The notes under the pieces were generated by a model that ran no database searches, had not been told where the DNA came from, and saw only the letters and a list, made by a program, of their open reading frames with translations. From Acidimicrobiia bacterium (lineage in GTDB: Bacteria; Actinomycetota; Acidimicrobiia; Acidimicrobiales; Bin134), in NCBI GenBank assembly GCA_022822265.1, contig JAJECA010000003.1, forward strand, positions 1 to 64,000: a DNA stretch of 64,000 bases, in the 5' to 3' direction. Shown here piece by piece: positions 15,273 through 64,000 of the stretch; the stretch's first letter is position 1; each line of letters begins with the position of its first letter. A program made the position numbers and the translations under genes.

Positions 15273-16553
15273 ATGTCGTCGTCGGTTGGGAGGGTAGGGT
15301 TTGGCGGCGTGCGATTGGTTGTCCCCCGTCCTTTGCTGTTGGCGCTTGCGTTGGTTGCGCTTTTGGCGTCTGCGTGCGGGGGCGGCGGCGGACCGACTCC
15401 GGTGGTTTCGCAGCCCGCGCAGTGCCAGCTTGTGCGGGGAGGCCCGGGCCCGTCGGGCGAGGTCGAGCTGCATGTCGAGGTCGTAGCCGATGGTCTGGAG
15501 ATTCCCTGGGGGCTGGCGGTGGTTCCCTCTGGCGATCTGCTGGTGACCGAGCGGCCCGGCCGGCTGCGCCTGATCCAAGGCGGCGCGGTGGTTCCCGAGC
15601 CGGTGCTCGAGTTGGGCGTGTCGATGCCGCCGCCCCTGTACGGGTTAGCCCTTTTGGGGTCCGAGGGCGGGCTGCTGGGGGTGCTTTTGCACCCCGAGTT
15701 CGCCGCCAACCGCCAGTTCTACCTGTTTTACAACATCGACGACGAAGACGGCGTGCAGATCGGCCGCATCGAGCGCTATGCGCTCTCCGCCGACGGCCGC
15801 TCGGCGGCCTTCGACCGGGTCATCCTCGACAATCTGCCCGCAGGGCTCCACCATCAGGGCGGCCGCATGCGGATCGGGCCCGACGGCATGCTGTACGCAG
15901 GCGTCGGCGCCTACGAGCCCCATGACGCGCAAAACCCCGGCACCCTGGCGGGGAAACTGCTCAGAATGGACCTCGAAGGCGGCATCCCCGCCGACAACCC
16001 CGAACCCGGCAGCTACATCTTCGCCAGCGGAATCCGCAACACCCAGGGATACGACTGGCTCGACGACCAGCACATCGCGATGGTGGAGCACGGCCCGTCC
16101 GGCATCGAGCTGGGGATGCCGGAGTTGCGGGGCTACGACGAGGTCAACATCGTGACCGCCGGCGACAACCTGGGCTGGCCCAGCATCTGGGGGTGCGACA
16201 CGCAACAAGGACTGGTCAGCCCGGTGCTGGCCTGGGAGGAGCCGGTGCCGCCGACCGGAGCGGTCTTCTACCGGGGCGGCCTGATCCCGGAATGGACCGG
16301 CAGCTTCCTGTTCACGGCCGTCGGGCTCAGCGACAGCCCGGGCGGGCGGCATCTGCACCGCGTGGTGTTCGACCAGAACGACCCCCACACCGTGGTGTCC
16401 CACGAGGTGTACCTGAAGGACGCCTACGGGCGCCTGCGCACCATCGTCAGCGACACCGACGGATGGCTCTACGTGATGACCAGCAACTGCGACAACCGCG
16501 GCGAGTGCCCACCCGAAGGCGACCTCATCCTGCGAATCGGCCCCGTCAGTTGA
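15273..16553 (+). CDS. PQQ-dependent sugar dehydrogenase-like lipoprotein (GSDH family)
   Basis: I chose the ATG giving MSSSVGRVGFGGVRLVVPRP. The leader LLLALALVALLASACGGGGG has a lipobox (LASAC), so the enzyme is anchored outside the membrane. Typical GSDH six-bladed propeller motifs follow: GLEIPWGLAVVPSGDLLVTE, LLGVLLHPEFAANRQFYLFY, HHQGGRMRIGPDGMLYAGVG, GIRNTQGYDWLDDQHIAMVE (a variant of the usual RNPQGLAW) and DNLGWPSIWGC. Members oxidise sugars or other alcohols with PQQ. The canonical GD after the LYAGVG strand is replaced by AY, so activity is not certain. The 3' end overlaps the convergent lyase gene by 8 bp. A related domain is part of the giant protein at 40959. Confidence 0.8.
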   Translation: MSSSVGRVGFGGVRLVVPRPLLLALALVALLASACGGGGGPTPVVSQPAQCQLVRGGPGPSGEVELHVEVVADGLEIPWGLAVVPSGDLLVTERPGRLRLIQGGAVVPEPVLELGVSMPPPLYGLALLGSEGGLLGVLLHPEFAANRQFYLFYNIDDEDGVQIGRIERYALSADGRSAAFDRVILDNLPAGLHHQGGRMRIGPDGMLYAGVGAYEPHDAQNPGTLAGKLLRMDLEGGIPADNPEPGSYIFASGIRNTQGYDWLDDQHIAMVEHGPSGIELGMPELRGYDEVNIVTAGDNLGWPSIWGCDTQQGLVSPVLAWEEPVPPTGAVFYRGGLIPEWTGSFLFTAVGLSDSPGGRHLHRVVFDQNDPHTVVSHEVYLKDAYGRLRTIVSDTDGWLYVMTSNCDNRGECPPEGDLILRIGPVS

Positions 16554-17493
16554 TGAGGCCGCATTGGCGGGCTCGGTCGAGGGTGACCTCGAAGAGGCGG
16601 GTGGTGGCGGCGTCGATCATCATGCCCTTGTAGCTGGCCGCTCCCTGGCCTTCGGCTTCGGCGGCTCGAACCGCGTCCACCACGCCCTGCGCCTCGGCGA
16701 TCTCCTCCGGGGTTGGGGCGAACACCCGGTTGGCGATCTCGATCTGGCTGGGGTGGATGCACCACTTGCCCACGCCGCCCAGCATCGAGAAGGTGGCCGC
16801 GCTCTTCTCGTAGCCTCCGGGGTTGGCGATGTTGGCGTAGGGCCCGTCGATGGCGTCGATCCCCGCGGCCCGGCAGGCCACGATCATGCGGGTCCGGGCG
16901 TAGTGCCACACATCGCCCGGATAGCGAAGGGCGGCGTCGCCGTCGGTCACCCCGATGTGGCCGAGGCGCATCCCCTGGCTGGCCGACAAGTCGCCCACCC
17001 CCAGGGTGAGAGCCTCGAGGCGGGGGCTGCACCGGGCTATCTCGTCCACCGTCTGGACGGCCTCGACCTCTTCCACCAGGCACTCGATGCCGATGCGGCC
17101 CACCTCGAGGCCCAACTTGAGCTCGAGCTGGGTCAACATGTCGTCCACGAACCACACCTCGCGGGGGCCCTTGATCTTGGGCACCATGATCACGTCGATG
17201 TTGGCCCCGGCGCCGGTGACCACCTCGGCGATGTCGTCGTGGCACCACTGGGTGTCGACGCCGTTGATCCGGTAGGAGCGGATCTTGTCGCCCCAGTCCA
17301 GATCGTTGAGCCCGGCGATGATGTTGGCGCGGGCGCCCACCTTGGCCGACGGGGCCACCGCGTCCTCCAAGTCGAGGAACACCATGTCGGCGTCGCTCTG
17401 GGCGGCCTTGGCGATCATCTTGTCGGAGTGCCCCGGAGTGGACAGCTCCGAGCGTCGCACCCGCACCGGCTTCTGGCGTTCGTAGCTGCTCAT
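16546..17493 (-). CDS. HpcH/HpaI (CitE-like) acyl-CoA lyase, cluster A
   Basis: The 315-residue protein belongs to the CitE-like aldolase family, which splits or forms beta-hydroxyacyl-CoA (malyl-CoA, methylmalyl-CoA, citramalyl-CoA, HMG-CoA). Visible motifs are RRSELSTPGHSDKMIAKAAQ, MVFLDLEDAVAPSAKV, MVPKIKGPREVWFVDDML, IGIECLVEEVEAVQTVDEIA (metal-ligand Glu), LTLGVGDLSASQG and GKWCIHPSQIEIAN. It is the last gene of a five-gene minus-strand operon and overlaps the CoA-transferase stop (ATGA). It likely performs the chain-cleaving step. A close paralogue begins at 63600. The exact substrate is not readable. Confidence 0.85.
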   Translation of the reverse strand: MSSYERQKPVRVRRSELSTPGHSDKMIAKAAQSDADMVFLDLEDAVAPSAKVGARANIIAGLNDLDWGDKIRSYRINGVDTQWCHDDIAEVVTGAGANIDVIMVPKIKGPREVWFVDDMLTQLELKLGLEVGRIGIECLVEEVEAVQTVDEIARCSPRLEALTLGVGDLSASQGMRLGHIGVTDGDAALRYPGDVWHYARTRMIVACRAAGIDAIDGPYANIANPGGYEKSAATFSMLGGVGKWCIHPSQIEIANRVFAPTPEEIAEAQGVVDAVRAAEAEGQGAASYKGMMIDAATTRLFEVTLDRARQCGLIN

Positions 17494-18743
17494 TCAGGCT
17501 CCTTTTGCTGGTCGAGTTCGGCGATCACCTCGTCGGTGTGCTCGCCGAGCTTGGGGGCGGGGCGGTACACCCCGGTTGGCAGATGGGCGAAGCGGATCGG
17601 CGTGTTGGGGGTGATCACCGGGCGGGCCGAGCCGGGGTGGTCCACCGCCACCAGCATCTTGCGGGCCCTCACCTGCTCGTTGTCGTGCAGGTCTACGGCG
17701 TTGTTCACCGGGCCGCAGGGCACCTTGTCGGCCAGGGTGTCCACCACCTCGGCCTTGGTGAGGCCAGAGGTCCAGGCGGTGACCGCCTCGCGGACCTCCT
17801 CGCGGTGCAGCACCCGCCGCCGCGAGCTCTTGTAGCGGTCGTGGTCGATCATGTCCTCCCGCCCGATGATCCGGCACAGCCGCTCCCAGTGCCGAGGGCC
17901 GGGAGCGGCGATGGCCACCTGGCCGTCGGCGGTGTCGTATAGCTCGAACGGGCACAGCGAGGGGTGCTCGCTGCCGCGGGGGGCCTGGATCTCCCCGGTG
18001 TAGGAATAGCGCCAGGTCATCGACTCGCACAGCGCCATCAGCGAGTCCACCATGCCCACGTCCACAAACTGCCCCTCACCGGTGCGGCGGGCGTGGTGGA
18101 GCGCGGCCAGAACGCCCGACACCATCATGGCGGCGGGGTACAGGTCGCCCACGCTGGGGCCGCTGACCACCCGCTCGCCGTCTTTGGTGCCGGTGTAGCT
18201 GACGAGCCCCGACATCGACTGGGCCACGATGTCGTAGGCCGGCCAGTAGGTGTAGGGCCCCTCCCCGGTGCGGGGATCGCCGAAGCCCCGGATGGCCCCG
18301 TACACCAGATCAGGCTTGCGCTCCCGAAGCGCCTCGTAGCCCAGGCCGAGCTCGTCCATGACCCCGGCCCGGTAGTTCTCCACCACCACGTCCGCGGTGT
18401 CCACCAGCCGCAGGAACACCGAGACGTCGTCGGGTTCTTTGAGGTTTAGGACCACGCTGCGCTTGTTGCGGTTGTTGCTGGCGAAGTAGCCGCCGAAGAA
18501 GTGCTCGTCGTCGGCCTCGGTGTGGGGGCCGATCAGCCGGACGGTGTCGCCGTGGGGCGGCTCCACCTTGATCACGTCGGCGCCCATGTCGGCCAAGATC
18601 ATGGTGCAGAAGGGGCCGGCCAGCGCCTGGGTGAGATCCACGATGCGCACGTCGGCAAGCGGCCCCGAGCGCTCGGGCGACATCGCGGCGGCCTCCTCGT
18701 GGGCGGCCAGGTAGCTGCCCGACTCGTCGCGGACGGCGCTCAT
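17490..18743 (-). CDS. Family III CoA-transferase (CaiB/BaiF), cluster A
   Basis: The 417-residue protein starts MSAVRDESGSYLAAHEEAAA. It shows class III CoA-transferase motifs: VRIVDLTQALAGPFCTMILA, DMGADVIKVEPPHGDTVR, NRNKRSVVLNLKEPDDV, VVVENYRAGVMDELGLGYE, LVYGAIRGFGDPRTGEGP and SGPSVGDLYPAAMMVSGVLA with the catalytic Asp in VGD. It would activate a carboxylic acid using an acyl-CoA donor such as succinyl-CoA. It sits between the MaoC and lyase genes with 4-bp overlaps on both sides. The equivalent position in cluster B has no such gene. Confidence 0.88.
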   Translation of the reverse strand: MSAVRDESGSYLAAHEEAAAMSPERSGPLADVRIVDLTQALAGPFCTMILADMGADVIKVEPPHGDTVRLIGPHTEADDEHFFGGYFASNNRNKRSVVLNLKEPDDVSVFLRLVDTADVVVENYRAGVMDELGLGYEALRERKPDLVYGAIRGFGDPRTGEGPYTYWPAYDIVAQSMSGLVSYTGTKDGERVVSGPSVGDLYPAAMMVSGVLAALHHARRTGEGQFVDVGMVDSLMALCESMTWRYSYTGEIQAPRGSEHPSLCPFELYDTADGQVAIAAPGPRHWERLCRIIGREDMIDHDRYKSSRRRVLHREEVREAVTAWTSGLTKAEVVDTLADKVPCGPVNNAVDLHDNEQVRARKMLVAVDHPGSARPVITPNTPIRFAHLPTGVYRPAPKLGEHTDEVIAELDQQKEPE

Positions 18744-19228
18744 CGCGGCCCCCAGTGGCTTCGGCGCTTGATGAGCACGAGCCGCTCCAGCTCGCACACC
18801 ACGTCGCCGTGCTGGTTGCGGCCCCAGTGCTTGAACCGCACGACCCCGGCGTCGTCGCGGTCGGAGGCGTCGGCGGTTTCCAGCACCTCGGTGTAGGCGG
18901 TGATGGTGTCGCCGTGGTGTACCGGCTTTTTGAACCGCACCGCGTCGAGGCCCAGGTCGCCGAGCGCGTTCTCGGAGGTGTCCTGGCTGGCGAGTCCCAC
19001 CGCCATCGACCCGGTGATCAGCCCGAACACCAGCCGGCCGTCGCCCAAAGGCGATCCGGCCATGATCTCCTCGTTCCAATGCGACTGGGCGGTGTTCATC
19101 ACCTGCTTGGAGATGTAGTTGTTCTCCACCTCGTCGATGGTGGCCGAGCGGGCGTGGCGCATGCGCCGGCCCACTTCGAAGTCCTCGAAGTAGTTGTTCG
19201 AGCCGGTGAGCGTCGAAATCGCAGCCAC
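18740..19228 (-). CDS. MaoC-type hydratase (mesaconyl/itaconyl-CoA hydratase-like), cluster A
   Basis: This 162-residue single hot-dog protein reads NNYFEDFEVGRRMRHARSAT, IDEVENNYISKQVMNTAQSH, RLVFGLITGSMAVGLASQDT and PVHHGDTITAYTEVLETADA, ending RFKHWGRNQHGDVVCELERL. The MNTAQSHW segment takes the place of the classic GDxNPxH of R-hydratases. This Asn-for-Asp variant also occurs, as far as I recall, in mesaconyl-CoA or methylmalyl-CoA (de)hydratase-like proteins. It probably hydrates an enoyl-CoA before the CitE-like lyase. It overlaps the CoA-transferase gene by ATGA. Confidence 0.8.
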   Translation of the reverse strand: MAAISTLTGSNNYFEDFEVGRRMRHARSATIDEVENNYISKQVMNTAQSHWNEEIMAGSPLGDGRLVFGLITGSMAVGLASQDTSENALGDLGLDAVRFKKPVHHGDTITAYTEVLETADASDRDDAGVVRFKHWGRNQHGDVVCELERLVLIKRRSHWGPR

Positions 19229-19238
19229 AGCGGTCTCC

Positions 19239-20450
19239 CTATCGCAGCGGGGTCGGTGGTAGGAGGTGGTCGGAGACTATCCGCTGCATGATCTCGCTGG
19301 TGCCCTCGAAGATCTTGGTGAGCCGGGCGTCCCGCCAGTAGCGCTCGATGGGCAGGTCGGTGGTGTAGCCCGCCCCGCCGTGGATCTGGAGCGCCTCGGA
19401 GGCCACCCGCTCCGACATCTCCGACGCCAGGTACTTCACCATCGCCCCTGCCATGTCGGACCGCTCGCCGGCGTCGGCGTTGGCCGCCACCTGGTACATC
19501 AGGGCGCGGCACGCCTCGATCTCCGAGGCCATCCTGGCGATCTTGAACCGGGTCACCTGGAAGTCGCCGATGGGCCGGCCGAACTGCTCCCGCTCCTGCG
19601 CGTAGCCGATGGAGTCTTCCAGCGCGCCCCGGGCCAGCCCAATCGAGCGGGCTGCGGTGTGGATGCGGGGCGTGGTCATGCCCGCCGCCGCCCGCTTGAA
19701 CCCGGCGTCGTCGGCGGTCTCTGATACCTCATGGCCTACCAGGCAGTCGTCGGGCACGAAGCAGTCGTCGAACGAAAGCTCGTAGGTGCGCCGGCCGTGA
19801 TAGCCGATCTTGCGGATGGGGTTGCCCGACACGCCCTCGGGGAACTCGCCCGGCGCCTTGTGGACGGCGAACTGGCGGATGCCGGAGTGCCGCTTGTCGG
19901 GGTTGTAGGGCTTGTTCCGGGCCACCACCATGATGCAGTCGGCCTGGTCGGCGAACGTACACCACATCTTCTGGCCGTTGAGCAGCCATCCGCCGTCGGC
20001 CTTGTCGGCCCTGGTGCGGATCGACGCGATGTCGGAGCCCGCCCCCGGCTCGGACATGGCAAGACAGCCCAGCCACTGGCCGCGGGCGGCAAGGGGCATG
20101 TACTTCTCGCGTTGTGCGGAGTCCAGCGCGAACACGATCCCCGAGCGGGCGATGATGCTGGCCACGCTCATCCAGGCTCGGGACAGCTCCTCGGTAATGA
20201 GCGCGTACTCGAACACGCCGAGCCCCAGCCCTCCGTAGCGCTCCGGCATCAGTATCCCGAAGAACCCCAGCTCGCCCATCTCGGCGCGCAACTCGTCGGG
20301 GATGATGCCGTGCTCGGGGTCGAGTCGGTTGGCGATGGGCAGAACCCGGCTCATGGCGAAGTCGCGGGCCATCTGCTGGATCGCGGTCCGCTCGTCGGTG
20401 CGATACGGCGCGGGGATCGCCGGACGGGGGTCGGCAAGCGCAGCGGGCAC
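19239..20450 (-). CDS. Acyl-CoA dehydrogenase, cluster A
   Basis: The 403-residue FAD enzyme starts at a GTG (PAALADPRPAIPAPYRTDER). It has ACAD landmarks: MGELGFFGILMPERYGGLGL, CLAMSEPGAGSDIASIRTRA (FAD/substrate signature), WLLNGQKMWCTFADQADCIM, QREKYMPLAARGQW, REQFGRPIGDFQVTRFKIAR, ALQIHGGAGYTTDLPIERYW and RLTKIFEGTSEIMQRIVSDH with the catalytic Glu in FEGT. It introduces a 2,3-double bond into an acyl-CoA. Lies between two MaoC genes in the minus-strand arm. Paralogue at 61864 is nearly collinear. Confidence 0.93.
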   Translation of the reverse strand: MPAALADPRPAIPAPYRTDERTAIQQMARDFAMSRVLPIANRLDPEHGIIPDELRAEMGELGFFGILMPERYGGLGLGVFEYALITEELSRAWMSVASIIARSGIVFALDSAQREKYMPLAARGQWLGCLAMSEPGAGSDIASIRTRADKADGGWLLNGQKMWCTFADQADCIMVVARNKPYNPDKRHSGIRQFAVHKAPGEFPEGVSGNPIRKIGYHGRRTYELSFDDCFVPDDCLVGHEVSETADDAGFKRAAAGMTTPRIHTAARSIGLARGALEDSIGYAQEREQFGRPIGDFQVTRFKIARMASEIEACRALMYQVAANADAGERSDMAGAMVKYLASEMSERVASEALQIHGGAGYTTDLPIERYWRDARLTKIFEGTSEIMQRIVSDHLLPPTPLR

Positions 20451-20459
20451 CGTCAGTCC

Positions 20460-20987
20460 CTATTCGGCCTGCGCCTCTTGGCCACCAGGCTCGCGCGGTT
20501 TCGGCCTGCGCCTCTTGGCCACCAGGTTGGTGCGGTTCAGCTCCACCACCAGCTCGCCGCGCTGGTTGTGGGCCTCGGTGCGCCAGGTGACGATCCCGGT
20601 GGTCGGGCGGCTGTCCGACTCCCGGGCCTCCACCACCACGGAGCTGGCCGTGAGCGTGTCGCCCGGGTACACCGGCTGGTGGAACCTGACCCCCTCCATG
20701 CCCAGAAACGGCCCGCCGATCTCGCTGAGGTCCTGCACCGAGAGGCCGACCACGGTGCACAGCACCAGCATCGGGTTGACCACCACATCGCGATGGCCAT
20801 GGGCCTTGGCGAACTCGGCGTTCAGGTGCATCGGATTCCAGTTGCACATCGCCGTGGAGAACAGCGCGTTGTCGCCGTGGGTGACCGTACGGCCCCAGTG
20901 GTGAGAGAACTCCCGACCCTCGGCGAAATCTTCGAACTGGTTGCCGTGAAGCACCACAGGAAAGCTGTCGAAGTCAGGCTCGCCCAT
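20460..20987 (-). CDS. MaoC-type hydratase, first gene of the cluster A left arm
   Basis: A 175-residue hot-dog protein: PDFDSFPVVLHGNQFEDFAE, GDNALFSTAMCNWNPMHLNA, EFAKAHGHRDVVVNPMLVLC, RFHQPVYPGDTLTASSVVVE and TGIVTWRTEAHNQRGELVVE. CNWNPMHLN aligns with the catalytic GDxNPxHxD motif but has Asn where the catalytic Asp is expected. I start at ATG 20987 as in its paralogue. A 37-bp tandem duplication at the 3' end has replaced the original tail (paralogue ends KRRPPKGG) with PREPGGQEAQAE. It is divergent from the TIGR03083 gene across a conserved promoter element. Confidence 0.8.
   Translation of the reverse strand: MGEPDFDSFPVVLHGNQFEDFAEGREFSHHWGRTVTHGDNALFSTAMCNWNPMHLNAEFAKAHGHRDVVVNPMLVLCTVVGLSVQDLSEIGGPFLGMEGVRFHQPVYPGDTLTASSVVVEARESDSRPTTGIVTWRTEAHNQRGELVVELNRTNLVAKRRRPKPREPGGQEAQAE
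20463..20526. repeat. 37-bp-period tandem duplication at the MaoC 3' end
   Basis: The 27-bp block beginning ttcggcctgcgcctcttggc is present at 20463-20489 and 20500-20526. As 37 is not a multiple of three, the duplication changed the C-terminal reading frame of the MaoC gene and extended it by about a dozen codons compared with the cluster B paralogue. Confidence 0.85.
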
Positions 20988-21030
20988 CAAGCCCCGACGC
21001 TAACAACGAACCCCTCCCGCAACAAGCAGC
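20988..21030. promoter_or_regulatory. Conserved 43-bp divergent promoter element, cluster A copy
   Basis: Read on the minus strand, the 43 bp just upstream of the MaoC ATG match the 43 bp upstream of the paralogous MaoC at 61321-61363 at 33 of 43 positions with no gap. The match includes the identical 15-mer GTTGTTAGCGTCGGG and a shared TGCTTGTTG. Non-coding conservation between paralogous clusters suggests a common regulator site or promoter for both divergent arms. Confidence 0.55.
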
Positions 21031-21098
21031 TTGAATGGGCGATGCGCCGAGGGTGCGGCCTTCTTGACAATCACCGGTTGGCGGTCAACTATTGGCCG

Positions 21099-21902
21099 GT
21101 GACCGTCGAGGCCGCAGCGGCACACGAGACCTTCTACCGCCGGATCGCCGAAGTGGCCCGAACACTGTCTGAGGCCGAGTGGATCGCGCCGTCGGCGTGC
21201 GCGGGGTGGCGGGTGCGCGACGTGGTGGCCCACATCGGCGCCGGCGCCCGCAATCTGATCGACCCGCTGCCGGTGCCCGACGAGCGGCTGCCCCTGCCCG
21301 CAGTGCGCGAGCGGGAGCACGACGTTCATGTGGACATCCGCCGAGGCTGGCCGATCTCCGAAGTGCTGGACGAGTTCGAGCGCTACAGCGCCGAGCGGCT
21401 GGAGCGGCTCTCGGCCCTCCAGGAGGAGCCAGCGGCCTCCTCGATGCTGGAGTTGCCCGGCTTGGGCAGCTATCCCATGCACGCCGCGGCCAATGGCCTG
21501 GCCTTCGACTGCTACTGCCACCTGTACCATGACATCATCGCCCCCGGGGGCCCCGTCCAGAGGGAATTGCCGGCACCCGCCCACGACGAGATGTACCCGG
21601 TGGTGCAGTGGATGATGTGGGGGCTCCCCCAGATGCAGGGCCCCGAGCTCGACGAGTCGCTGATCGCGCCGGTGACCATTCGCCTGACCGGCCCCGGCGA
21701 GAGCACCTGGACTGTGCGGCGGCCCGACCCTGCCGGCGGCCTGGTGGTGGAAGAGGGCGCAGGGGGCGACGCGGCGGTCTCATCGGCGGCGACCGATTTC
21801 GTGTCGTGGGGAACAGGCCGCTCGCCGTGGCGGGCGACCTGCCGCGTCGAGGGCGACACCGCTCTCGTGTCCGGTTTTCTGTCCACGCTGAACATCATCT
21901 GA
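21099..21902 (+). CDS. TIGR03083/DinB-like protein (mycothiol-dependent isomerase-like), cluster A
   Basis: I start at the GTG (MTVEAAAAHETFYRRIAEVA) because the cluster B paralogue starts at the equivalent GTG; both give 267 residues. The pattern SEAEWIAPSACAGWRVRDVV, AHIGAGARNLIDPLP, LEELPGL-type core with LAFDCYCHLYHDI, and a C-terminal MDMPI-like domain (VTIRLTGPGESTWTVRRPDP, ATDFVSWGTGRSPWRATCRV) matches the maleylpyruvate isomerase/TIGR03083 superfamily. Members bind a metal and often use mycothiol. The His residues in VVAHI and CHLYHD are candidate ligands. First gene of the right arm, upstream of the P450. Confidence 0.8.
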   Translation: MTVEAAAAHETFYRRIAEVARTLSEAEWIAPSACAGWRVRDVVAHIGAGARNLIDPLPVPDERLPLPAVREREHDVHVDIRRGWPISEVLDEFERYSAERLERLSALQEEPAASSMLELPGLGSYPMHAAANGLAFDCYCHLYHDIIAPGGPVQRELPAPAHDEMYPVVQWMMWGLPQMQGPELDESLIAPVTIRLTGPGESTWTVRRPDPAGGLVVEEGAGGDAAVSSAATDFVSWGTGRSPWRATCRVEGDTALVSGFLSTLNII

Positions 21903-21926
21903 GCAACATCAACCCAAGGGGGGCAA

Positions 21927-23252: not shown

Positions 23253-23276
23253 CCGCTCGGCGGCTTCGGAGGCTGA

Positions 23277-24622: not shown

Positions 24623-24630
24623 AGAGCGCC

Positions 24631-25512
24631 ATGGCCATGGTCGTAGAGGGACAACCGGTGGTGGTAACCGGCGGAGGCAGCGGCATCGGTGCGGCGCTGG
24701 CCGCGGAGGCCGCGGCCCGGGGGGCCTCGGCAGTGGCCGTCGCCGATGTGGATTTGGAGGCCGCCGAAGCCGTCGCCCGCGCCATCGCCGACAGCGGCGG
24801 CACCGCCCGGGCCTACGACTGCGACGTGACCAGCCCCGAATCAGTGGGCGAGCTCGCCGATGCCGTCGCCCGCGACCACGGGACGCCCGCCCTGGCCTGC
24901 GCCAACGCCGGCGTCATGGCCCCGCTGGCGCCGCTGCTGGAAGCCTCCGGGGCCGACGCCGAGTGGACGATGAGGGTCAACGTCTTGGGCACGCTCCACA
25001 CCCTTCAGAGCTTCGGGCGCCTCATGGCCACCGGCGACGAGCCCGGATGGCTCATGGCCACCGGCTCAGAGCACTCGGTGGGCGTCCCCCACCTGCGCGC
25101 CGCGGCCTACACCGCATCCAAGCACGCCGTGCTCGCCATGTGCGACGTGCTCCGCGGCGAGCTGCCCGACCATATGGGCGTGAGCGTGGTGTGCCCGGGC
25201 ATCACCACGAGCCGGCTGTGGGACTCCGCCCGACTCCGCCCCGAGGAGTATGGAGGGGCCGCCGAGAGCGATCCGATGTCTGGGATGCTCATGGAGCAGA
25301 AGGGCATGAGCGCCGCCACCGTGGCCCGGCGCGCCTTCGACGGCATAGCCGAGGGGCATTTCTTGATCCCCACCCACTACCACCCCCGCATCTACGCCCA
25401 GCTCCGGGCCGACGAGATGGCCGAAGCCTACGACCGCCTCGCCGAGATCGACACCGCAGACTACGACCTCAACACGATCGTCGCCCAGTACCTGTCTGAG
25501 GCTGACGAGTAG
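24631..25512 (+). CDS. Short-chain dehydrogenase/reductase, cluster A
   Basis: The ATG at 24631 follows an aaaggaga ribosome binding site. The 293-residue protein has the NAD(P)-binding motif VVVTGGGSGIGAALAAEAAA, an acidic residue after strand 2 (VAVADVDLEAAEAVARA) favouring NAD, the ACANAGVMAPLA segment (NAG), Ser in ATGSEHSVG and the catalytic YTASKHAVLAMCDVLRGELP (YxxxK). The C-terminal extension FLIPTHYHPRIYAQLRADEM is shared with the cluster B paralogue. It probably oxidises the alcohol made by the P450. Last gene of the right arm. Confidence 0.9.
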   Translation: MAMVVEGQPVVVTGGGSGIGAALAAEAAARGASAVAVADVDLEAAEAVARAIADSGGTARAYDCDVTSPESVGELADAVARDHGTPALACANAGVMAPLAPLLEASGADAEWTMRVNVLGTLHTLQSFGRLMATGDEPGWLMATGSEHSVGVPHLRAAAYTASKHAVLAMCDVLRGELPDHMGVSVVCPGITTSRLWDSARLRPEEYGGAAESDPMSGMLMEQKGMSAATVARRAFDGIAEGHFLIPTHYHPRIYAQLRADEMAEAYDRLAEIDTADYDLNTIVAQYLSEADE

Positions 25513-32306: not shown

Positions 32307-32359
32307 CGACTCTTGTCTCCCCCTGCTTGTTAGCGTTCCCTCCTAGCCAGTGCCTGCTG

Positions 32360-58183: not shown

Positions 58184-59080
58184 CTATCTGGCTTCTTGTT
58201 CTTCTGTCGCTGCTGTCAGGAATGCGGCGACGGTTCTGTTGAGGTCGTAGTCGGCGGTGTCGATTTTGGCGAGGCGATCGTAGGCCTCGGCCATGTCGTC
58301 GGCTCGCTGCTGGGCGTAGGCGCGGGCGTGGTAGTGGGTGGGGATCAGGAAATAGCCTTCCGCTATTGCGTCGAAGGCCCGCTGGGCGACGGTTTCGGCG
58401 CTCATGCCCATCTGCTCCGTGAACACCCCTGCGCCCGGGTCGCTGTCGGCGTTGCCGCCGTATTGCCGGGGGCGCCGGCGGGTGGCGTTCCACAGCTTGC
58501 TCACGGTGAGGCCGGGGCAGACCACACTGATCCCAACGTGGTCGGGCAGCTCGGCTCGTAGCACGTCGCACATGCCCAGCACCGCGTGCTTGGATGCGGT
58601 GTAGGCGCCGGAGTTGGCGTGGGGAACGCCCACGGAGTGCTCCGAGCCGGTGGCCATGAGCCAGCCTTGCTGTTGGCCGTCGGCCATGAGCCGACCGAAG
58701 CTCTGGAGCGTGTTGATGGTGCCCAGCACGTTGACCCTGACCACCCACTCGGCGTCGCTCGAAGCGGTGTGGAGCAGCGGTGCCATCGCCGACATCACCC
58801 CGGCATTGGCGCAGACCAGGCCGGGGATGCCGTGTTCGGCGGCGACAGCCTGAGCCAGCTCTTCCATGGCCGACGCGTCGGTCACGTCGCACTGGCGGGC
58901 TGCCGCGGCGCCGCCCTGGGCGGCGATGCTCTCGGCCACCGCCTGGGCGTCTTCGACGTCCACGTCTGAGACCGTGATGTGGCCGGCGCCGCGGTTTGCG
59001 GCCTCCAGTGCCAGCGCCGCTCCTATTCCGCTGCCTCCGCCGGTGACCACCACCGGCCTTCCCTTGATCTGCGCTCCCAT
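58184..59080 (-). CDS. Short-chain dehydrogenase/reductase, cluster B
   Basis: The 298-residue protein begins MGAQIKGRPVVVTGGGSGIG and shares the whole layout of the cluster A SDR: ITVSDVDVEDAQAVAESIAA, LVCANAGVMSAMAPLLHTAS, GWLMATGSEHSVGVPHANSG, AYTASKHAVLGMCDVLRAEL (catalytic YxxxK) and FLIPTHYHARAYAQQRADDM. Asp after strand 2 favours NAD. It would oxidise the P450-generated alcohol or a later hydroxyacyl compound. It ends in EEQEAR, ten bases before the P450 start. Confidence 0.9.
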   Translation of the reverse strand: MGAQIKGRPVVVTGGGSGIGAALALEAANRGAGHITVSDVDVEDAQAVAESIAAQGGAAAARQCDVTDASAMEELAQAVAAEHGIPGLVCANAGVMSAMAPLLHTASSDAEWVVRVNVLGTINTLQSFGRLMADGQQQGWLMATGSEHSVGVPHANSGAYTASKHAVLGMCDVLRAELPDHVGISVVCPGLTVSKLWNATRRRPRQYGGNADSDPGAGVFTEQMGMSAETVAQRAFDAIAEGYFLIPTHYHARAYAQQRADDMAEAYDRLAKIDTADYDLNRTVAAFLTAATEEQEAR

Positions 59081-59103: not shown

Positions 59104-60369
59104 TCAGCTTGCCCGTGCTTCGATCTGATCCAACACCGGCAGCAGGTACCGCACGAATGCCTCGGGGTTCTCCTGCATCGGGAAGTGCCCCACATCGGCC
59201 ATCTCGGTGTGGGTGGATCCGGCGATGGCCAGATGGGCCTCCCGGCCCGCCTCGACGGTTCCGGTGTAGTCGTACTCGCCGTTCATGATGTGTACCGCGG
59301 TGGCGCCTATGTCGATCTCGCTGGCCCGGTCGCGGATGTCGTAGTCCTCCATGTAGTAGAAGAGGTCGCCCAAGAACGAGGGGGGCCAGCCGGAGGAGTA
59401 CACCTGCGACACCTCCTTCACATAGGGCAGGGGCGAGGTGGGCGAGCACAGGCCCTCCATCATCCGGGCCTTGGAGTGGTTGCTCACCTGCGGGTGCCAG
59501 AAGCCGAAGAACTCGTCCCGGTTGCCGCCGATGTGCAGCGCCCCCTCGAGGGCGATGACCGCCTGGAACTCGCCGGGGTGGCGAAGCGCCAAATCCAGGG
59601 CCAGCAAACCGCCCACCGAGCAGCCCATGAACACCGGCCGCTCCAGCCCCAGAGCTTTGGCCAGGGCCAGGGGCACCTGTCGCAAGAACTCCCCGCGCAG
59701 CTCGTAGCTTTGCTCCCACCAGCGCTTTTGCACCGGCGGCACCGACTTGCCGTGGAAGGGCAGATCGTAGGCCACCAGGCGGAAGCGGTCGGTGATCTCG
59801 GCCACCTCGAAAAGGTGCCGGTACTGGATGCTGTCGGCCCCGGCGGTGTGCTGGCAGAGCAGGGGGATGCCCGAGCCCGCCTCCTCGTAGTAGATGCGGT
59901 GGTCGAGCCCATCGACCTCAAGGTGGATATAGCGGCCCACCGGGCTGTCGTGGCGGGGCATGGGGCCGCTCTCGTTGACCTCGGTTGGGCGGTGGGCGCC
60001 GGGCGCCCGCAACAGCTCGCTGGCCCGCTCCACCGCGGGCAGGTACTGCCACAGCAGCAGCGGGTCGGTTTGGCCCCGCTGAAAGCCCATCTCGCCGAGG
60101 GCCAGCATCACCGAGATCTGGGCGAACCGGGGCGGAACGGCCTCCATCAGCGGCGCCCACAGCTCTGCCGGACCCGTGATGGTGATCACCCCGTCGCCCT
60201 CGGCCGGCACACCGGCGCTGATCTCTCCGTCGACCACGGTGAAGCCGGTCCACGACTCGCCGATGCCCAACCGAAGCCCGCCTGTCCAGTGGCGGACCGC
60301 CAAGCGCATCTCGCCATCTGCGACACAGGCCGCCGCGAAGTCAACGGGGTCAGGGGCGGTGATGGTCAT
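59104..60369 (-). CDS. SCP2-like domain fused to alpha/beta hydrolase, cluster B
   Basis: I start at ATG 60369 (MTITAPDPVDFAAACVADGE) and not at a TTG two codons upstream. As in the cluster A paralogue, the first about 125 residues look like an SCP2-type domain (GESWTGFTVVDGEISAGVPA, ITITGPAELWAPLMEAVPPR). The rest is an alpha/beta hydrolase with MGCSVGGLLALDLALRHPGE (nucleophile Ser), NGEYDYTGTVEAGREAH and DVGHFPMQENPEAFVRYLLP (His). The two paralogues align without gaps over most of their length. Probably acts on a hydrophobic ester, lactone or ring-cleavage product. Confidence 0.75.
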   Translation of the reverse strand: MTITAPDPVDFAAACVADGEMRLAVRHWTGGLRLGIGESWTGFTVVDGEISAGVPAEGDGVITITGPAELWAPLMEAVPPRFAQISVMLALGEMGFQRGQTDPLLLWQYLPAVERASELLRAPGAHRPTEVNESGPMPRHDSPVGRYIHLEVDGLDHRIYYEEAGSGIPLLCQHTAGADSIQYRHLFEVAEITDRFRLVAYDLPFHGKSVPPVQKRWWEQSYELRGEFLRQVPLALAKALGLERPVFMGCSVGGLLALDLALRHPGEFQAVIALEGALHIGGNRDEFFGFWHPQVSNHSKARMMEGLCSPTSPLPYVKEVSQVYSSGWPPSFLGDLFYYMEDYDIRDRASEIDIGATAVHIMNGEYDYTGTVEAGREAHLAIAGSTHTEMADVGHFPMQENPEAFVRYLLPVLDQIEARAS

Positions 60370-60455: not shown

Positions 60456-61259
60456 TCAAACAATGTCCAGGGTGGACAAGAACGCGGTGGCTACCGCCAT
60501 GTCACCCTCCACTTCGCATGCGGTGTGCCACGCAGAGCGGCCTGTGCCCCACGACACGAAGTCTACTGCTGTCGAGGCCACCACCACCTCTGCGCCCCCG
60601 CCGGATGCCACCACCAGCCCACCCTCGGGGTCGGGCCGGCGCACCGTCCACTCGCTCTCGCCGGGGCCGGTAAGGCGAATGGTGACGGGCGCCAGCAGGG
60701 AGTCGTCCAACTCGGGGCCCTGCATCTGGGGCAGCCCCCACATCATCCACTGCACTACCGGCAGCATCTCCTCGTGGGTGGGCGCCGGCAATTCCCGCTG
60801 GATCGGGCCGGCCGGAGCGGCGATGTCGTGGTAGAGATGGCAGAAGCAGTCGAAGGCCAGCCCGTTGGCCGCGGCGTGCATGGGGTAGGTGCCCAGCCCC
60901 GGTATCTCGATCTCGGTGGAGGCCAGCGGCTCCTCCTGAAGCCCCGGCAGGCGCTCCAGCCGCTCGGCGCCGAACCGCTCGAACTCGTCCACCACCTCCG
61001 CTACCGTCCAGCTTCGGCGGATGTCCACATGCACATCATGCTCCCGCTCCCGGTTGGCGGGCAGCGGCTGCCTGTCCTCGGGCACCGGCAGCGGGTCGAT
61101 CACGCTGCGGGCACCCGCTCCGATATGGGCAATCACATCCCGCACCCGCCACCCCGGACAGGCCGAAGGGGCTATCCACTCGGCATCCGAGAAGGTTCTG
61201 GCCACCTCGACGATCCTGTTGTGAAAAGCTCCCAGCGCGGCAACACCCTCAACAGTCAC
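60456..61259 (-). CDS. TIGR03083/DinB-like protein (mycothiol-dependent isomerase-like), cluster B
   Basis: A GTG-started 267-residue protein paralogous to that at 21099: NRIVEVARTFSDAEWIAPSA, CPGWRVRDVIAHIGAGARSV, REHDVHVDIRRSWTVAEVVD, LAFDCFCHLYHDIAAPAGPI, VVQWMMWGLPQMQGPELDDS and VTIRLTGPGESEWTVRRPDP. The His in IAHI and CHLYHD are candidate metal ligands. It may perform a thiol-assisted isomerisation in the pathway. It is the first gene of the left arm, divergent from the MaoC gene across the conserved promoter element. Confidence 0.8.
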   Translation of the reverse strand: MTVEGVAALGAFHNRIVEVARTFSDAEWIAPSACPGWRVRDVIAHIGAGARSVIDPLPVPEDRQPLPANREREHDVHVDIRRSWTVAEVVDEFERFGAERLERLPGLQEEPLASTEIEIPGLGTYPMHAAANGLAFDCFCHLYHDIAAPAGPIQRELPAPTHEEMLPVVQWMMWGLPQMQGPELDDSLLAPVTIRLTGPGESEWTVRRPDPEGGLVVASGGGAEVVVASTAVDFVSWGTGRSAWHTACEVEGDMAVATAFLSTLDIV

Positions 61260-61320
61260 CGGCCCATCCTTGACCGCGAATCACCCCCTGTCAAGAGGAT
61301 GGGCGGTGAGGTTCATGGTG

Positions 61321-61363
61321 GTTGCTTGTTGTTGTGGGGCTTGGTTGTTAGCGTCGGGCGGTG
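61321..61363. promoter_or_regulatory. Conserved 43-bp divergent promoter element, cluster B copy
   Basis: The plus-strand 43 bp immediately before the MaoC ATG match the minus-strand 43 bp at 20988-21030 at 33 positions, including GTTGTTAGCGTCGGG. The adjoining 61260-61320 region shows no such conservation. A shared activator or repressor site for both clusters is the simplest reading. Confidence 0.55.
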
Positions 61364-61861
61364 ATGGGCGAGCCTGATTTCGACAGCTTCCCGGTAGTTG
61401 TCCACGGCCACCAGTTCGAGGACTTTCCCGAGGGGCGGGAGTTCGCCCACCACTGGGGCCGCACGATCACCGCCGGCGACAACGCGCTGTTCTCCACGGC
61501 GACGTGCAACTGGAATCCGATGCACCTCAACGCCGAGTTCGCCAAGGCGCACGGCCATCCCGACGTGGTGGTCAACCCGATGCTGGTGCTGTGTACGGTG
61601 GTCGGACTCTCGGTGGAGGATCTGAGCGAGATCGGCGGCCCCTTTCTGGGCATGGAGAACGTGAGATTCCACCGCCCGGTGCATCCGGGCGACACGCTCA
61701 CGGCCTCCTCCAAGGCGGTCGAGGCCCGCGAGTCGAAGACCCGGCCCCACACCGGGATCGTCACCTGGCACACCGAGGCCCACAACCAACACGGTGAGCT
61801 GGTGGTCGACTACCAGCGCACCAACCTGGTGGCCAAAAGGCGCCCCCCAAAGGGCGGCTGA
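61364..61861 (+). CDS. MaoC-type hydratase, first gene of the cluster B right arm
   Basis: A 165-residue hot-dog protein collinear with that at 20460: GEPDFDSFPVVVHGHQFEDF, DNALFSTATCNWNPMHLNAE, VVVNPMLVLCTVVGLSVEDL and RTNLVAKRRPPKGG. The catalytic GDxNPxH motif is CNWNPMH, with Asn instead of Asp. The tail is the shorter, presumably original one. The stop lies three bases from the acyl-CoA dehydrogenase start, so the two are probably translated together. Confidence 0.82.
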   Translation: MGEPDFDSFPVVVHGHQFEDFPEGREFAHHWGRTITAGDNALFSTATCNWNPMHLNAEFAKAHGHPDVVVNPMLVLCTVVGLSVEDLSEIGGPFLGMENVRFHRPVHPGDTLTASSKAVEARESKTRPHTGIVTWHTEAHNQHGELVVDYQRTNLVAKRRPPKGG

Positions 61862-61863
61862 GG

Positions 61864-63075
61864 ATGCCCCGCACTCTGGTGGACCCGCGTCCCCCGATCC
61901 CGGTGCCCTACCGCACCGACGAGCGGGTGGCGATCCAGGAGATGGCCCGCGACTTCGCCATGAGCCGGGTGCTGCCCATCGCCAACCGCCTCGACCCCGA
62001 GCACGGCCTCATCCCCGAGGAGCTGCGCGCCGAGATGGGGGAGCTGGGGTTCTTCGGGGTCATGGTGCCGGAGCACTACGGGGGCCTCGGCCTCGGCGTG
62101 TTCGAGTACGCGCTCATAACCGAGGAGCTCTCCCGGGCCTGGATGAGCGTGGCCAGCATCATCGCCCGCGCCGGGATCGCCCTCTCGCTCGACCCCGCCC
62201 AGCGCGAGCAGTACCTGCCGCTGGCCGCCAAGGGCGAGTGGCTGGGCTGTTTCGCCATGTCGGAGCCCGGCGCCGGCTCCGACATCGCCTCGATCCGCAC
62301 CCGGGCCGACAAAGCCGAGGGCGGCTGGCTGCTCAACGGCCAGAAGATGTGGTGTACATTCGCCGACCAGGCCGACTGCATCCTGGTGGTGGCCCGCAAC
62401 AAGCCCTACGACCCCGACAACCGCCACTCCGGGATCCGCCAGTTCGCCGTCCACAAGGCGCCGGGGGTATTCCCCGAAGGGGTGTCGGGCAGCCCCATCA
62501 GAAAGATCGGCTACCACGGCTGGCGCACCTTCGAGCTGTCGTTCGACGACTGCTTCGTGCCCGACGACTGCTTGGTGGGCTACCAGAAGGCCGAAACGGC
62601 CGACGACATCGGCTTCAGGCAGACCGCAGCGGCCATGGCCACACCCCGCATCCACACCGCGGCCCGGTCGATCGGCCTGGCCCGGGGCGCACTGGAGGAT
62701 TCGATTGCCTACGCCCAGCAAAGAGAGCAGTTCGGCCGGCCCATCGGCGACTTCCAGGTGACCCGCTTCAAGATCGCCAAGATGGCCTCGGAAGTCGAGG
62801 CCTGCCGGGCCCTGATGTATCAGGTTGCAGCCGGCGCCGACGCGGGGGAGAAGCCCGACATGGCAGCGGCGATGGTGAAGTATCTGGCCGCCGAGATGTC
62901 GGAGAAGGTCACCTCAGAGGCGCTCCAGATCCACGGCGGCGCGGGCTACACCACCGATTTCCCTATCGAGCGCTACTGGCGCGACGCCCGGCTCACCAAG
63001 ATCTTCGAGGGAACCAGCGAGATCATGCAGCGGATCATCTCCGACCACCTGCTACCCCCCTCGCCGCTGCGCTAG
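61864..63075 (+). CDS. Acyl-CoA dehydrogenase, cluster B
   Basis: A 403-residue ACAD, same length as its cluster A paralogue and highly similar throughout: MGELGFFGVMVPEHYGGLGL, CFAMSEPGAGSDIASIRTRA, QKMWCTFADQADCILVVARN, SIAYAQQREQFGRPIGDFQV, LQIHGGAGYTTDFPIERYWR and KIFEGTSEIMQRIISDHLLP (catalytic Glu in FEGT). It introduces a double bond into the CoA-activated substrate. Electron transfer flavoprotein genes are not in the window. Confidence 0.94.
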   Translation: MPRTLVDPRPPIPVPYRTDERVAIQEMARDFAMSRVLPIANRLDPEHGLIPEELRAEMGELGFFGVMVPEHYGGLGLGVFEYALITEELSRAWMSVASIIARAGIALSLDPAQREQYLPLAAKGEWLGCFAMSEPGAGSDIASIRTRADKAEGGWLLNGQKMWCTFADQADCILVVARNKPYDPDNRHSGIRQFAVHKAPGVFPEGVSGSPIRKIGYHGWRTFELSFDDCFVPDDCLVGYQKAETADDIGFRQTAAAMATPRIHTAARSIGLARGALEDSIAYAQQREQFGRPIGDFQVTRFKIAKMASEVEACRALMYQVAAGADAGEKPDMAAAMVKYLAAEMSEKVTSEALQIHGGAGYTTDFPIERYWRDARLTKIFEGTSEIMQRIISDHLLPPSPLR

Positions 63076-63084
63076 AACAAGACA

Positions 63085-63603
63085 ATGAGCGATCTGTCCG
63101 CCCTGACCGGCTCCGACAACTACTTCGAGGACTTCGCGGCGGGGCAGCGGATGCGCCACGCCCGGTCGGCCACCATCGACGAGGTGGAGAACAACTACAT
63201 CTCCAAGCAGGTGATGAACACCGCCCAGGGGCATTGGAATGAGGAGTACTTGGCCGGGCCTCCGCTGGGCGGCGGCCGACTGGTGTTCGGACTCATCACC
63301 GGGTCGATGACGGTGGGGCTCGCCAGCCAGGACACCGCAGAGAATGCCTTGGGCGAGCTCGGGCTCGACGCGGTGCGGTTCTCCAAACCGGTACACCACG
63401 GCGACACCATCACCGCCTACACCGAGGTGCTGGATACCGCCGATGCCCCCGACCGAGACGACGCGGGTATCGTGCGCTTCAAGCACTGGGGCCGCAACCA
63501 GCACGGCGAGGTGGTGTGCGAGCTGGAGCGGCTGGTGCTCATCAAGCGCCGCACCCACTGGGCGGCAGCCACGCCCCAAACCGAGACCAGGGAGGTCCAA
63601 TGA
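63085..63603 (+). CDS. MaoC-type hydratase (mesaconyl/itaconyl-CoA hydratase-like), cluster B
   Basis: A 172-residue paralogue of the protein at 18740: DNYFEDFAAGQRMRHARSAT, ISKQVMNTAQGHWNEEYLAG, RLVFGLITGSMTVGLASQDT, KPVHHGDTITAYTEVLDTAD and RFKHWGRNQHGEVVCELERL. It has a C-terminal extension (AAATPQTETREVQ) relative to its paralogue. Its stop overlaps the lyase ATG (ATGA) directly. In cluster A the CoA-transferase gene sits at this junction, so the gene has been cleanly lost here or gained there. Confidence 0.83.
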   Translation: MSDLSALTGSDNYFEDFAAGQRMRHARSATIDEVENNYISKQVMNTAQGHWNEEYLAGPPLGGGRLVFGLITGSMTVGLASQDTAENALGELGLDAVRFSKPVHHGDTITAYTEVLDTADAPDRDDAGIVRFKHWGRNQHGEVVCELERLVLIKRRTHWAAATPQTETREVQ

Positions 63604-64000
63604 GCAGTTATGAACACCAGAAGCCGGTGCGAGTGCGGCGCTCGGAGCTGTCCACTCCGGGGCACTCCGAGAAGATGATCGCCAAGGCCGCGCAGAGCGA
63701 CGCCGACATGGTGTTCTTGGATCTCGAGGACGCAGTGGCCCCGTCGGCCAAGGTGGATGCCCGCCAGAACATCATCGCCGGGCTTAACGAGCTGGACTGG
63801 GGCAACAAGATCCGCTCCTACCGCATCAACAGCGTCGAAACCGAGTGGTGCCACGACGACATCGCCGAGGTGGTGACCGGCGCCGGGGCCAACATCGACG
63901 TGATCATGGTGCCCAAGATCAAAGGCCCCCGCGAGGTGTGGTTCGTGGACGACATGTTGACCCAGCTTGAGCTCAAGCTGGGCCTCGAGGTGGGTCGGAT
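63600..64000 (+). CDS. HpcH/HpaI (CitE-like) acyl-CoA lyase, cluster B, cut by window edge
   Basis: The visible 133 residues (SSYEHQKPVRVRRSELSTPG, HSEKMIAKAAQSDADMVFLD, LEDAVAPSAKV, IDVIMVPKIKGPREVWFVDD, LTQLELKLGLEVGR) are nearly identical to the cluster A lyase. It starts in an ATGA overlap with the MaoC gene. The 3' two thirds lie outside the window. Presumed to cleave a beta-hydroxyacyl-CoA. Confidence 0.88.
   Translation, partial: MSSYEHQKPVRVRRSELSTPGHSEKMIAKAAQSDADMVFLDLEDAVAPSAKVDARQNIIAGLNELDWGNKIRSYRINSVETEWCHDDIAEVVTGAGANIDVIMVPKIKGPREVWFVDDMLTQLELKLGLEVGR

Follow-up and report, generated by a model that had tools for sequence, protein, structure and literature searches.

Why does one genome carry two mirror-image copies of what looks like a catabolic gene cluster, and what might they break down? 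The question is posed by bases 1-64000 of a 147,966-base contig (C32) from a 3.48 Mb Acidimicrobiia genome, a stretch referred to here as the window. Cluster A spans 16546-25512; cluster B runs from 55312, past the window end, to 64547 of the contig. In A the minus strand carries genes for a CitE-type lyase, a CaiB coenzyme A (CoA)-transferase, MaoC2, an acyl-CoA dehydrogenase (ACAD) and MaoC1, and the divergent plus strand those for a TIGR03083 protein, a cytochrome P450, an alpha/beta-hydrolase and a short-chain dehydrogenase (SDR). B is inverted, with ligase, P450, SDR, hydrolase and TIGR03083 genes on the minus strand and MaoC1, ACAD, MaoC2 and CitE on the divergent plus strand. The clusters probably serve to oxidise a hydrophobic molecule as far as a branched four-carbon diacid, which is subsequently cleaved. 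The form of this proposal which we prefer, while giving it somewhat less than an even chance, is that both specify an aerobic two-module route: an oxidative module would deliver a 2-substituted succinate or fumarate, from which a CoA module would produce glyoxylate and an acyl-CoA. Within it the hydration and cleavage of a 2-substituted fumaryl-CoA are firmer than the upstream steps.

The initial annotation had described two mirror-image paralogous clusters with divergent, inverted arms, a CaiB gene between MaoC2 and CitE in A, and in B a direct MaoC2/CitE overlap with a terminal ligase gene, all of which is borne out. The eight homologous pairs are 68-92% identical, with 85-92% in the CoA arm (CitE 92.1, ACAD 86.4, MaoC1 86.1, MaoC2 84.6%) and 68-77% in the oxidative arm (hydrolase 77.1, TIGR03083 75.3, P450 71.8, SDR 68.3%); whole-protein identities of such size in eight pairs would leave no room for chance. 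Besides the activating enzyme, therefore, it is the oxidative arm in which A and B have diverged more. MaoC2 and CitE overlap by four bases in B (63600-63603), and CaiB and CitE do so too in A (17490-17493).

Mapping of the window proteins on related loci and genomes (numbered L and G, respectively) gave two conserved orthologue types, both of which are present in the window genome. Type A (TIGR03083-P450-hydrolase-SDR, divergent from MaoC1-ACAD-MaoC2-CaiB-CitE) recurs in G001/L049 and G012/L050, the latter of the same genus as the window genome, and partially in G009/L043. Type B (TIGR03083-hydrolase-SDR-P450-ligase, divergent from MaoC1-ACAD-MaoC2-CitE) is found in G003/L051, G013/L053 and G019/L055; G005 and G006 have it in separate pieces, and G293/L054 has it together with an extra aldehyde dehydrogenase (ALDH) gene. 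Several of the L loci lie on the same contigs as G regions and are hence not independent of them.

Trees were read for TIGR03083, P450, ACAD, MaoC1 and part of MaoC2, with L164-L171 left out. The separation of an A from a B group stands out most clearly in TIGR03083 (A 100/97, B 81/83) and P450 (A 92/81); it is not resolved in ACAD, in MaoC1 or in the portion seen of the MaoC2 tree. The suggestion that the A and B members are paralogues is thus upheld, with distinct groups in two families. Neither unrelated origins of the two sets nor a scattering of unlinked genes among relatives was found; the genes stay together in different genomes and phyla, with the proviso that the P450s may have split more deeply than the other A/B genes.

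Two further genomes bear on pairs of this kind. In G008 (L204/L205, G008:C44:5124-25831) decayed remnants of both types lie side by side: from type A, CitE and CaiB near full length, MaoC2, MaoC1 and fragments of ACAD, PrpD and TIGR03083; from type B, TIGR03083, SDR and a hydrolase fragment; and a further CaiB fragment. This locus is an eroding cluster pair. G1166 (L206, L207/L056) is a second genome with two paralogous clusters, one of B type with its P450 and ligase elsewhere on the contig, the other, at a contig end, in a third arrangement (TIGR03083-P450-MaoC1-ACAD-hydrolase-MaoC2). We rejected L056 as a P450-less cluster, since its P450 and ligase lie on the same contig outside the locus; the same holds for the P450 of L102.

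The CoA arm and its distribution

MaoC1 and MaoC2 match the N and C halves, respectively, of PF19315, of NF041625 (haloarchaeal 2-methylfumaryl-CoA hydratase) and of PDB 8hgn, and on sequence grounds the two genes are the halves of one mesaconyl-CoA-hydratase-type enzyme. In the MeaC structure the contacts to malate include two N-domain residues, S79 and R142, and two from the C domain, N226 and H231 (PMC10164722). The first two correspond to MaoC1 S88/R152 and the others to MaoC2 N45/H50; all 13 orthologues aligned, which come from Acidimicrobiia, Alphaproteobacteria and Pseudomonadales, have the same residue at each of these positions. We read S79/R142 as recognising a free carboxylate. By our reading of the alignment three other MaoC proteins (1q6w, 4ffu and PaaZ) lack the Arg, the Ser being kept in 1q6w. 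Among the other MeaC contacts G249 is kept, and either F or Y stands at the position of Y248. MaoC1 does not conserve the PhaJ-like His, which would imply a MaoC1/MaoC2 heteromer. The ACAD located between the two halves carries an EGTSE motif in all 15 aligned sequences; we do not claim for it a dicarboxylate motif like that of glutaryl-CoA dehydrogenase.

The nearest solved relatives of CitE are the malyl/beta-methylmalyl-CoA lyases 5ugr and 4l9y (245 and 235 bits; 5vxc scores 103 and 8khl, an acyl-CoA lyase beta chain, 65). The A protein is 39.9% identical to Rhodobacter sphaeroides Mcl and keeps the catalytic residues of that enzyme (D42, E44, D45, R76, E141, D168 and D299). Two of the four proteobacterial loci, L096 (13398-14321) and L102 (4430-5305), possess a second CitE with Glu at the position of Mcl D299, which is described as a mark of the malyl-CoA thioesterase group (PMC3832036); judged by this residue it would return glyoxylate to malate. 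The window genome encodes both malate synthase and isocitrate lyase, and because of the latter we rejected the idea that glyoxylate arises there only from this pathway. A CitE-like fragment of 81 residues (51% identity) lies downstream of B (L035:6067-6303, contig C32:66067-66303), and short CitE-like matches occur downstream of B in L037, L045 and L046 as well.

The best NCBIfam match of the A CaiB is NF041294, succinyl-CoA:mesaconate CoA-transferase (447 bits, the next family scoring 310). The curated cut-off is 700 bits, so that this is the best family, yet the protein falls outside the equivalog. The Haloarcula enzyme is reported to take methylsuccinate as well, with a kcat/Km higher than for mesaconate, and to form only mesaconyl-C1-CoA (PMC5592240).

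Cluster A may reach out to an MmgE/PrpD gene at 12131-13450, whose homologues (40-69%) occur in the CoA-arm loci L043, L059, L065, L102 and L127. H85, D88, H99, Y145, H150, K198 and K262 of this protein are invariant in the five sequences aligned (L127 left out), and by position and motif, not by alignment, they match the residues given for the two-base isomerases iminodisuccinate epimerase and methylsuccinate isomerase, including the two-base Tyr; the same source states that all known substrates of the family share a C4 dicarboxylate (PMC12290011). Among 32 distinct loci, the total used throughout (L160 is left out as it shares a contig with L065), 12 include a PrpD of at least 40% identity, counting those of the window and L059, which were themselves the queries.

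The core consists of MaoC1-ACAD-MaoC2-CaiB-CitE, in many cases joined by MmgE/PrpD, and more divergent relatives have it without the oxidative genes. A sample of 397 genomes from the order, that of the window among them, gave MaoC2 orthologues (210 bits or more) in 23, belonging to 14 of 203 genera. In a sample of the phylum (n=396) the window genome is alone in exceeding 200 bits, and five more score 124-137; of 396 genomes from the Polymorphobacter order one passes and 26 score 124-135. In eight Acidimicrobiia loci, L164-L171, the stretch holds no orthologue of the P450, the hydrolase, the SDR or TIGR03083, the genomes themselves not having been searched. The full five-gene core stands without oxidative genes in L164, L166, L169, L170 and L171; it is partial in L165 (no close ACAD), L167 (no MaoC1, contig start) and L168 (no close CaiB), and PrpD is present in five of the eight. 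L096 (Polymorphobacter arshaanensis) and L102 combine the CoA arm with hydrolase, SDR, ALDH, glutathione S-transferase (GST) and P450 genes, the P450 of L102 lying 5.8 kb from MaoC1. L113 (Caulobacteraceae) begins inside CaiB at a contig end, and L127 (Pseudomonadales) has the CoA arm, hydrolase and PrpD, with no thiol enzyme by the queries used and no close P450 in its genome (best 37%). The oxidative module of P450, hydrolase, SDR, often ALDH, and thiol enzyme is an addition to this CoA core.

How the acid is activated differs between A and B, and had been explained as re-specialisation through a swap of this step. That explanation does not hold well. CaiB is found at 44% or more in 21 of the 32 loci, all four proteobacterial ones included. 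Its orthologue (60% or more) is present in the A-type genomes G001 and G012 and also in G007, G008 and G025; for the B-only genomes G003, G013 and G019, none of the CaiB matches at E up to 1e-60 exceeds 39%. The ligase orthologue occurs in these three at 89-95% (as two pieces in G019), and none above 39% was found in the other five. Outside the genus, L059 and L162 hold both genes, and L161 has the ligase with no close CaiB within the stretch. The most parsimonious reading is an ancestral CaiB and a ligase of long standing in the lineage that bears the P450, A and B having most simply lost one each. Because two outgroup loci carry both genes, reciprocal loss reads better than a swap, and it fits the A-only genomes without a ligase orthologue and the B-only ones without a CaiB orthologue at least as well. 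A and B would then descend from the duplication of one such cluster.

Oxidative module and thiol enzyme

The nearest solved relatives of the P450s are CYP125 and CYP124 enzymes, and so the hydrophobic substrate put forward in the initial annotation is reasonable. Compared with L059, L161 and L162 the A P450 is 68-69% and the B P450 81-84% identical; for every other shared gene the A-B difference is at most 5 points with all outgroups tried. The L206 P450 is nearer A (75%) than B (71%). To judge from these identities A and B use P450s of different sublineages. An acceleration of the A P450, as first read from L059, L161 and L162, was dropped, since L163 and L096, which are more remote, show hardly any difference between the A and B P450s (57 and 58%; 45 and 47%); an older split or an exchange is as likely.

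Residues S251, D367 and H395 of the hydrolase are invariant in 72 aligned sequences and are taken as the catalytic triad. A model built from this alignment (predicted local distance difference test score, pLDDT, 90.6) matches lactonases and esterases, enol-lactonase 2xua first; one built from nine sequences (pLDDT 55.7) was not used. From their titles and lengths the 50 fold matches listed appear to fall on the alpha/beta-hydrolase part. The label "SCP2-hydrolase" finds no support in Pfam and was rejected, as none of the 72 aligned members matches an SCP2 model at E up to 0.1, the fold of the N-terminal domain by itself not having been searched. Nor does the hydrolase serve as a marker of the pathway, 63 of 80 loci kept showing neither MaoC gene. 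In L067 and similar Acidimicrobiia loci the family sits beside genes which by eye are carotenoid oxygenase-, Baeyer-Villiger monooxygenase- and phytanoyl-CoA dioxygenase-like, neighbourhoods hinting at terpenoid catabolism.

TIGR03083 passes its curated cut-off of 50 bits in both clusters (A 64.8, B 61.1). Every cluster with an orthologous P450 also has a low-molecular-weight-thiol enzyme (14/14, or 17/17 with L056, L102 and L206 added); Actinobacteria have TIGR03083 in this place, and the two proteobacterial P450 clusters, L096 and L102, have a GST. TIGR03083 stands without a P450 in L043 and L058, where contigs end, and neither is present in L060, L062, L065, L100, L127 and L164-L171. From this pairing the P450 product or its next derivative seems to need a thiol cofactor, perhaps for conjugation or for cis-trans isomerisation. 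The best NCBIfam match of the L096 GST is IsoI (67.2 bits), followed by FzlA (58.8), and in the L113 GST the two are equal at 59.5, all far under cut-off. We did not retain these proteins as plain maleylacetoacetate isomerases, their maiA scores (42.8 and 44.0) being weaker than those for IsoI and FzlA.

Proposed route and its alternatives

What the sequences show directly is which genes are present and linked, the two orthologue types, the residue signatures of the active sites and the groupings in those trees that resolve. The reactions with their order, the heteromer, the substrate and the products that we infer from this would be as follows. The CYP124/125-like P450 would hydroxylate a hydrophobic, probably methyl-branched or isoprenoid substrate; the hydrolase would open an ester or lactone; the SDR, with ALDH in several relatives, would oxidise an alcohol to the acid; and the thiol enzyme, TIGR03083 or in Proteobacteria GST, would deal with a reactive intermediate. 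The resulting acid, a 2-substituted succinate or fumarate, would be activated by CaiB in A, with succinyl-CoA as the likely donor, and by the ligase in B, an MmgE/PrpD isomerase taking part in some clusters. ACAD would yield 2-substituted fumaryl-CoA, which the MaoC1/MaoC2 heteromer would hydrate to a beta-substituted malyl-CoA, and the CitE/Mcl-like lyase would split this into glyoxylate and an acyl-CoA for beta-oxidation.

One might imagine such a route as an aerobic and so far undescribed bypass of the beta-methyl block in acids that are isoprenoid or 3-methyl-branched. Here the P450 would oxidise the branch methyl, the gamma-hydroxy acid would form a lactone to be reopened by the hydrolase, and SDR/ALDH would give a 2-alkylsuccinate, the thiol step falling to TIGR03083 or GST according to phylum; the blocked end would leave as glyoxylate and an unbranched acyl-CoA would remain. 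In this specific form we consider the idea distinctly unlikely. Hopanoids were dropped as the substrate: the sole hint was the family name Candidatus Hopanoidivoransaceae, and the literature searched gave no support.

Among the closest known systems are the Mct-Mch-Mcl branch of the methylaspartate cycle in Haloarcula and the MeaC/Mcl enzymes that serve both the ethylmalonyl-CoA pathway and the 3-hydroxypropionate bicycle. CaiB and the hydratase are nearest to these, as is CitE among solved proteins, and both hot-dog halves are kept along with the malate-binding and catalytic hydratase residues. Unlike in those systems the hydratase is in two genes, an ACAD is embedded, P450, hydrolase, SDR and thiol enzyme are linked, the proteins lie under curated cut-offs and B is without CaiB.

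Several observations weigh against the proposed two-module route. Of the cluster proteins scanned, only TIGR03083 passes a curated NCBIfam cut-off for these functions, and an MshC-like match (436 bits) falls under its cut-off of 485. In the window MaoC1 changes two MeaC contacts, F71 to V and N85 (a backbone contact) to F. MaoC2 scores 71.6 on RipB/Ich (itaconate), equal to the 69-75 for methylfumaryl-CoA hydratase. The conserved CitE residues are described as superfamily-wide or nearly so (PMC3832036), and NCBIfam ranks the A CitE as citE 172.6, RipC/Ccl 158.1 and haloarchaeal malyl-CoA lyase 92.4, all under cut-off and in an order contrary to that of the PDB matches. The A-type loci L036 and L044, like the B loci, lack PrpD; no ACAD, hydrolase or CaiB was found in the stretch of L161, to which the gaps in L165 and L168 may be added; L113 and L127 show no second CitE; and L113 has its GST (66% to that of L096) in a genome with no close P450 (best 38%).

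These MaoC2 and CitE scores, the changed MeaC contacts and the superfamily-wide residues leave room for an itaconate/methylsuccinate-type C4 route, unlikely as we think it is. The carboxyl remote from the branch would be activated and citramalyl-CoA-like esters cleaved to acetyl-CoA and a 2-oxo acid. The cluster described in Pseudomonas and Cupriavidus (Ict, Ich, Ccl, methylsuccinyl-CoA dehydrogenase and an MmgE/PrpD methylsuccinate isomerase; PMC12290011) shares with our core its five functional classes: CoA-transferase, ACAD, hydratase, lyase and MmgE/PrpD. All five are linked in A, PrpD at 3.1 kb, and lie in one stretch in L164, L166, L169 and L170, but not in B, which has no CaiB or PrpD. 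MaoC2 and CitE score on the Ich and Ccl models also, although neither cut-off is reached (hydratase NF038241, 106 versus 340 bits; lyase NF038242, 158 versus 375 bits). On the other side, CitE is far nearer Mcl than 8khl among solved proteins, the transferase lies on the Mct side, where the nearest enzyme is the one reported to make only the C1-CoA ester, the thioesterase-type second CitE of two loci suggests glyoxylate handling, and an oxidative module is added. With such a transferase and lyase, the CoA position and the products probably differ from those of the pseudomonadal cluster.

Mycobacteria degrade the cholesterol side chain with CYP125/124/142, ChsE, ChsH1-H2 and Ltp2. A comparable aldolytic shortening would have P450, SDR and ALDH oxidise a terminal methyl, and ACAD, MaoC1/2 and CitE remove propionyl-CoA from a monocarboxylic 2-methylacyl-CoA, CitE replacing the thiolase-like aldolase. 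The kinship of the P450s, the paired MaoC genes beside an ACAD, which recall the heteromeric ChsH1-ChsH2/ChsE logic, and the ligase of B agree with it. We nevertheless give it a low probability: the lyase is of CitE type, MaoC1 has the malate-binding Ser/Arg, the nearest relative of CaiB is a dicarboxylate transferase, there is a PrpD partner, and the core is found without an orthologous P450.

Both the MDMPI and the GST family include known maleylpyruvate isomerases that depend on a thiol. One could therefore picture the P450 opening a 3-substituted furan or other ring to a cis-enedial, the thiol enzyme isomerising it to trans, and SDR/ALDH supplying a 2-alkylfumarate to the CoA arm, in keeping with the joint occurrence of P450 and thiol enzyme. 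This appears very improbable, as it leaves no clear role for ACAD and the GSTs score higher on IsoI and FzlA than on maiA.

Equally hard to credit is an isoprene-like conjugation, in which the P450 would epoxidise an alkene, the thiol enzyme open the epoxide, and the conjugate be oxidised by SDR and ALDH to an acid that CaiB activates: the classes are those of IsoMO, IsoI, IsoH, AldH and IsoG (PMC10057887), clustered as isoGHIJ-aldH, and IsoI is the best GST match, but the GSTs (67.2 and 59.5 bits) are far below the IsoI cut-off (NF049950, 300 bits), FzlA ties in L113, and the dicarboxylate signatures of the CoA arm are left unexplained. Here, moreover, a P450 stands in place of the isoprene monooxygenase, the Actinobacteria have a mycothiol-type enzyme, and ACAD, hydratase and lyase follow; isoABCDEF are not among the annotated cluster genes, no genome-wide search having been made.

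Coordinates, neighbouring genes and wider meaning

Table 1. Features of clusters A and B in the window
Feature	Position	Strand	Basis or remark
MmgE/PrpD protein, possible isomerase of a 2-substituted succinate, probable cluster A partner	12131..13450	-	Pfam MmgE_PrpD_N/C
Sorbosone-dehydrogenase-type gene, between MmgE/PrpD and cluster A	15225-16553		
A CitE-type lyase	16546..17493	-	Pfam HpcH_HpaI
A CaiB family III CoA-transferase	17490..18683	-	NCBIfam NF041294
A MaoC2, putative C-terminal half of split mesaconyl-CoA-hydratase-type enzyme	18740..19228	-	catalytic Asn/His
A ACAD	19239..20450	-	Pfam; EGTSE motif
A MaoC1, putative N-terminal half of split hydratase	20460..20987	-	Pfam PF19315; malate-binding Ser/Arg
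A divergent intergenic region	20988..21098	.	TTGTTAGCGTC close upstream of MaoC1 start
A TIGR03083 (MDMPI_N) mycothiol-dependent-enzyme family protein	21099..21902	+	NCBIfam TIGR03083
A cytochrome P450, nearest solved relatives CYP125 and CYP124	21927..23174	+	AGHET and FGTGPHFCLG motifs
A alpha/beta-hydrolase	23277..24539	+	~120-residue N-terminal domain
A SDR	24631..25512	+	
B AMP-forming acyl-CoA ligase	55312..56889	-	
B cytochrome P450	56918..58174	-	nearer L059/L161/L162 than A's P450
B SDR	58184..59080	-	
B alpha/beta-hydrolase	59104..60369	-	
B TIGR03083 protein	60456..61259	-	61.1 bits, cut-off 50
B divergent intergenic region	61260..61363	.	same TTGTTAGCGTC motif as A
B MaoC1	61364..61861	+	
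B ACAD	61864..63075	+	
B MaoC2	63085..63603	+	
B CitE-type lyase, cut by window end	63600..64000	+	ends at 64547 of contig

The motif TTGTTAGCGTC just upstream of the MaoC1 start is kept in A, B and six relatives (L049, L050, L051, L053, L054 and L055), and is found neither in L056 nor in loci outside the group of A/B relatives; it is perhaps a shared promoter giving a short-leader transcript. Between the clusters (30418-34276 and 36050-37612) are ABC-transporter permease and SBP_bac_5-type solute-binding genes and a thiamine-diphosphate enzyme (PRK07586, 661 bits, cut-off 363). They are followed by two very large proteins of 1764 and 2362 residues (40959-46253, 48023-55111) with Calx-beta domains, one also bearing sorbosone-dehydrogenase and cadherin domains and the other a PPDK_N domain.

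The initial annotation saw a coherent, apparently unnamed pathway. The pathway stands as real, and no description of the cluster was found in the open-licence PMC literature searched, PMC8262859 dealing with something else, but it is better seen as a variant related to known methylsuccinate/mesaconate metabolism. New with respect to that annotation are the split-hydratase nature of the MaoC pair, the mesaconate/methylsuccinate match of the CoA arm, the PrpD partner and the exchange of thiol enzymes between phyla.

If the two-module route is right, a methylsuccinate/mesaconate chemistry that is familiar from small diacids and central metabolism is coupled to P450 oxidation of hydrophobic compounds. 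This coupling would occur in some Proteobacteria and in Acidimicrobiia, mostly known from metagenome-assembled genomes and including kin of Candidatus Poriferisocius, a bin of which has been reported in corals (PMC12625765). Since the Proteobacteria include a named strain, Polymorphobacter arshaanensis DJ1R-1, the question is directly testable. The exchange of mycothiol and glutathione enzymes around one P450 would then be a natural experiment on which step needs the thiol, and a comparison of A with B, which have a similar CoA arm but differ in P450 and activator, would reveal how catabolic routes change.

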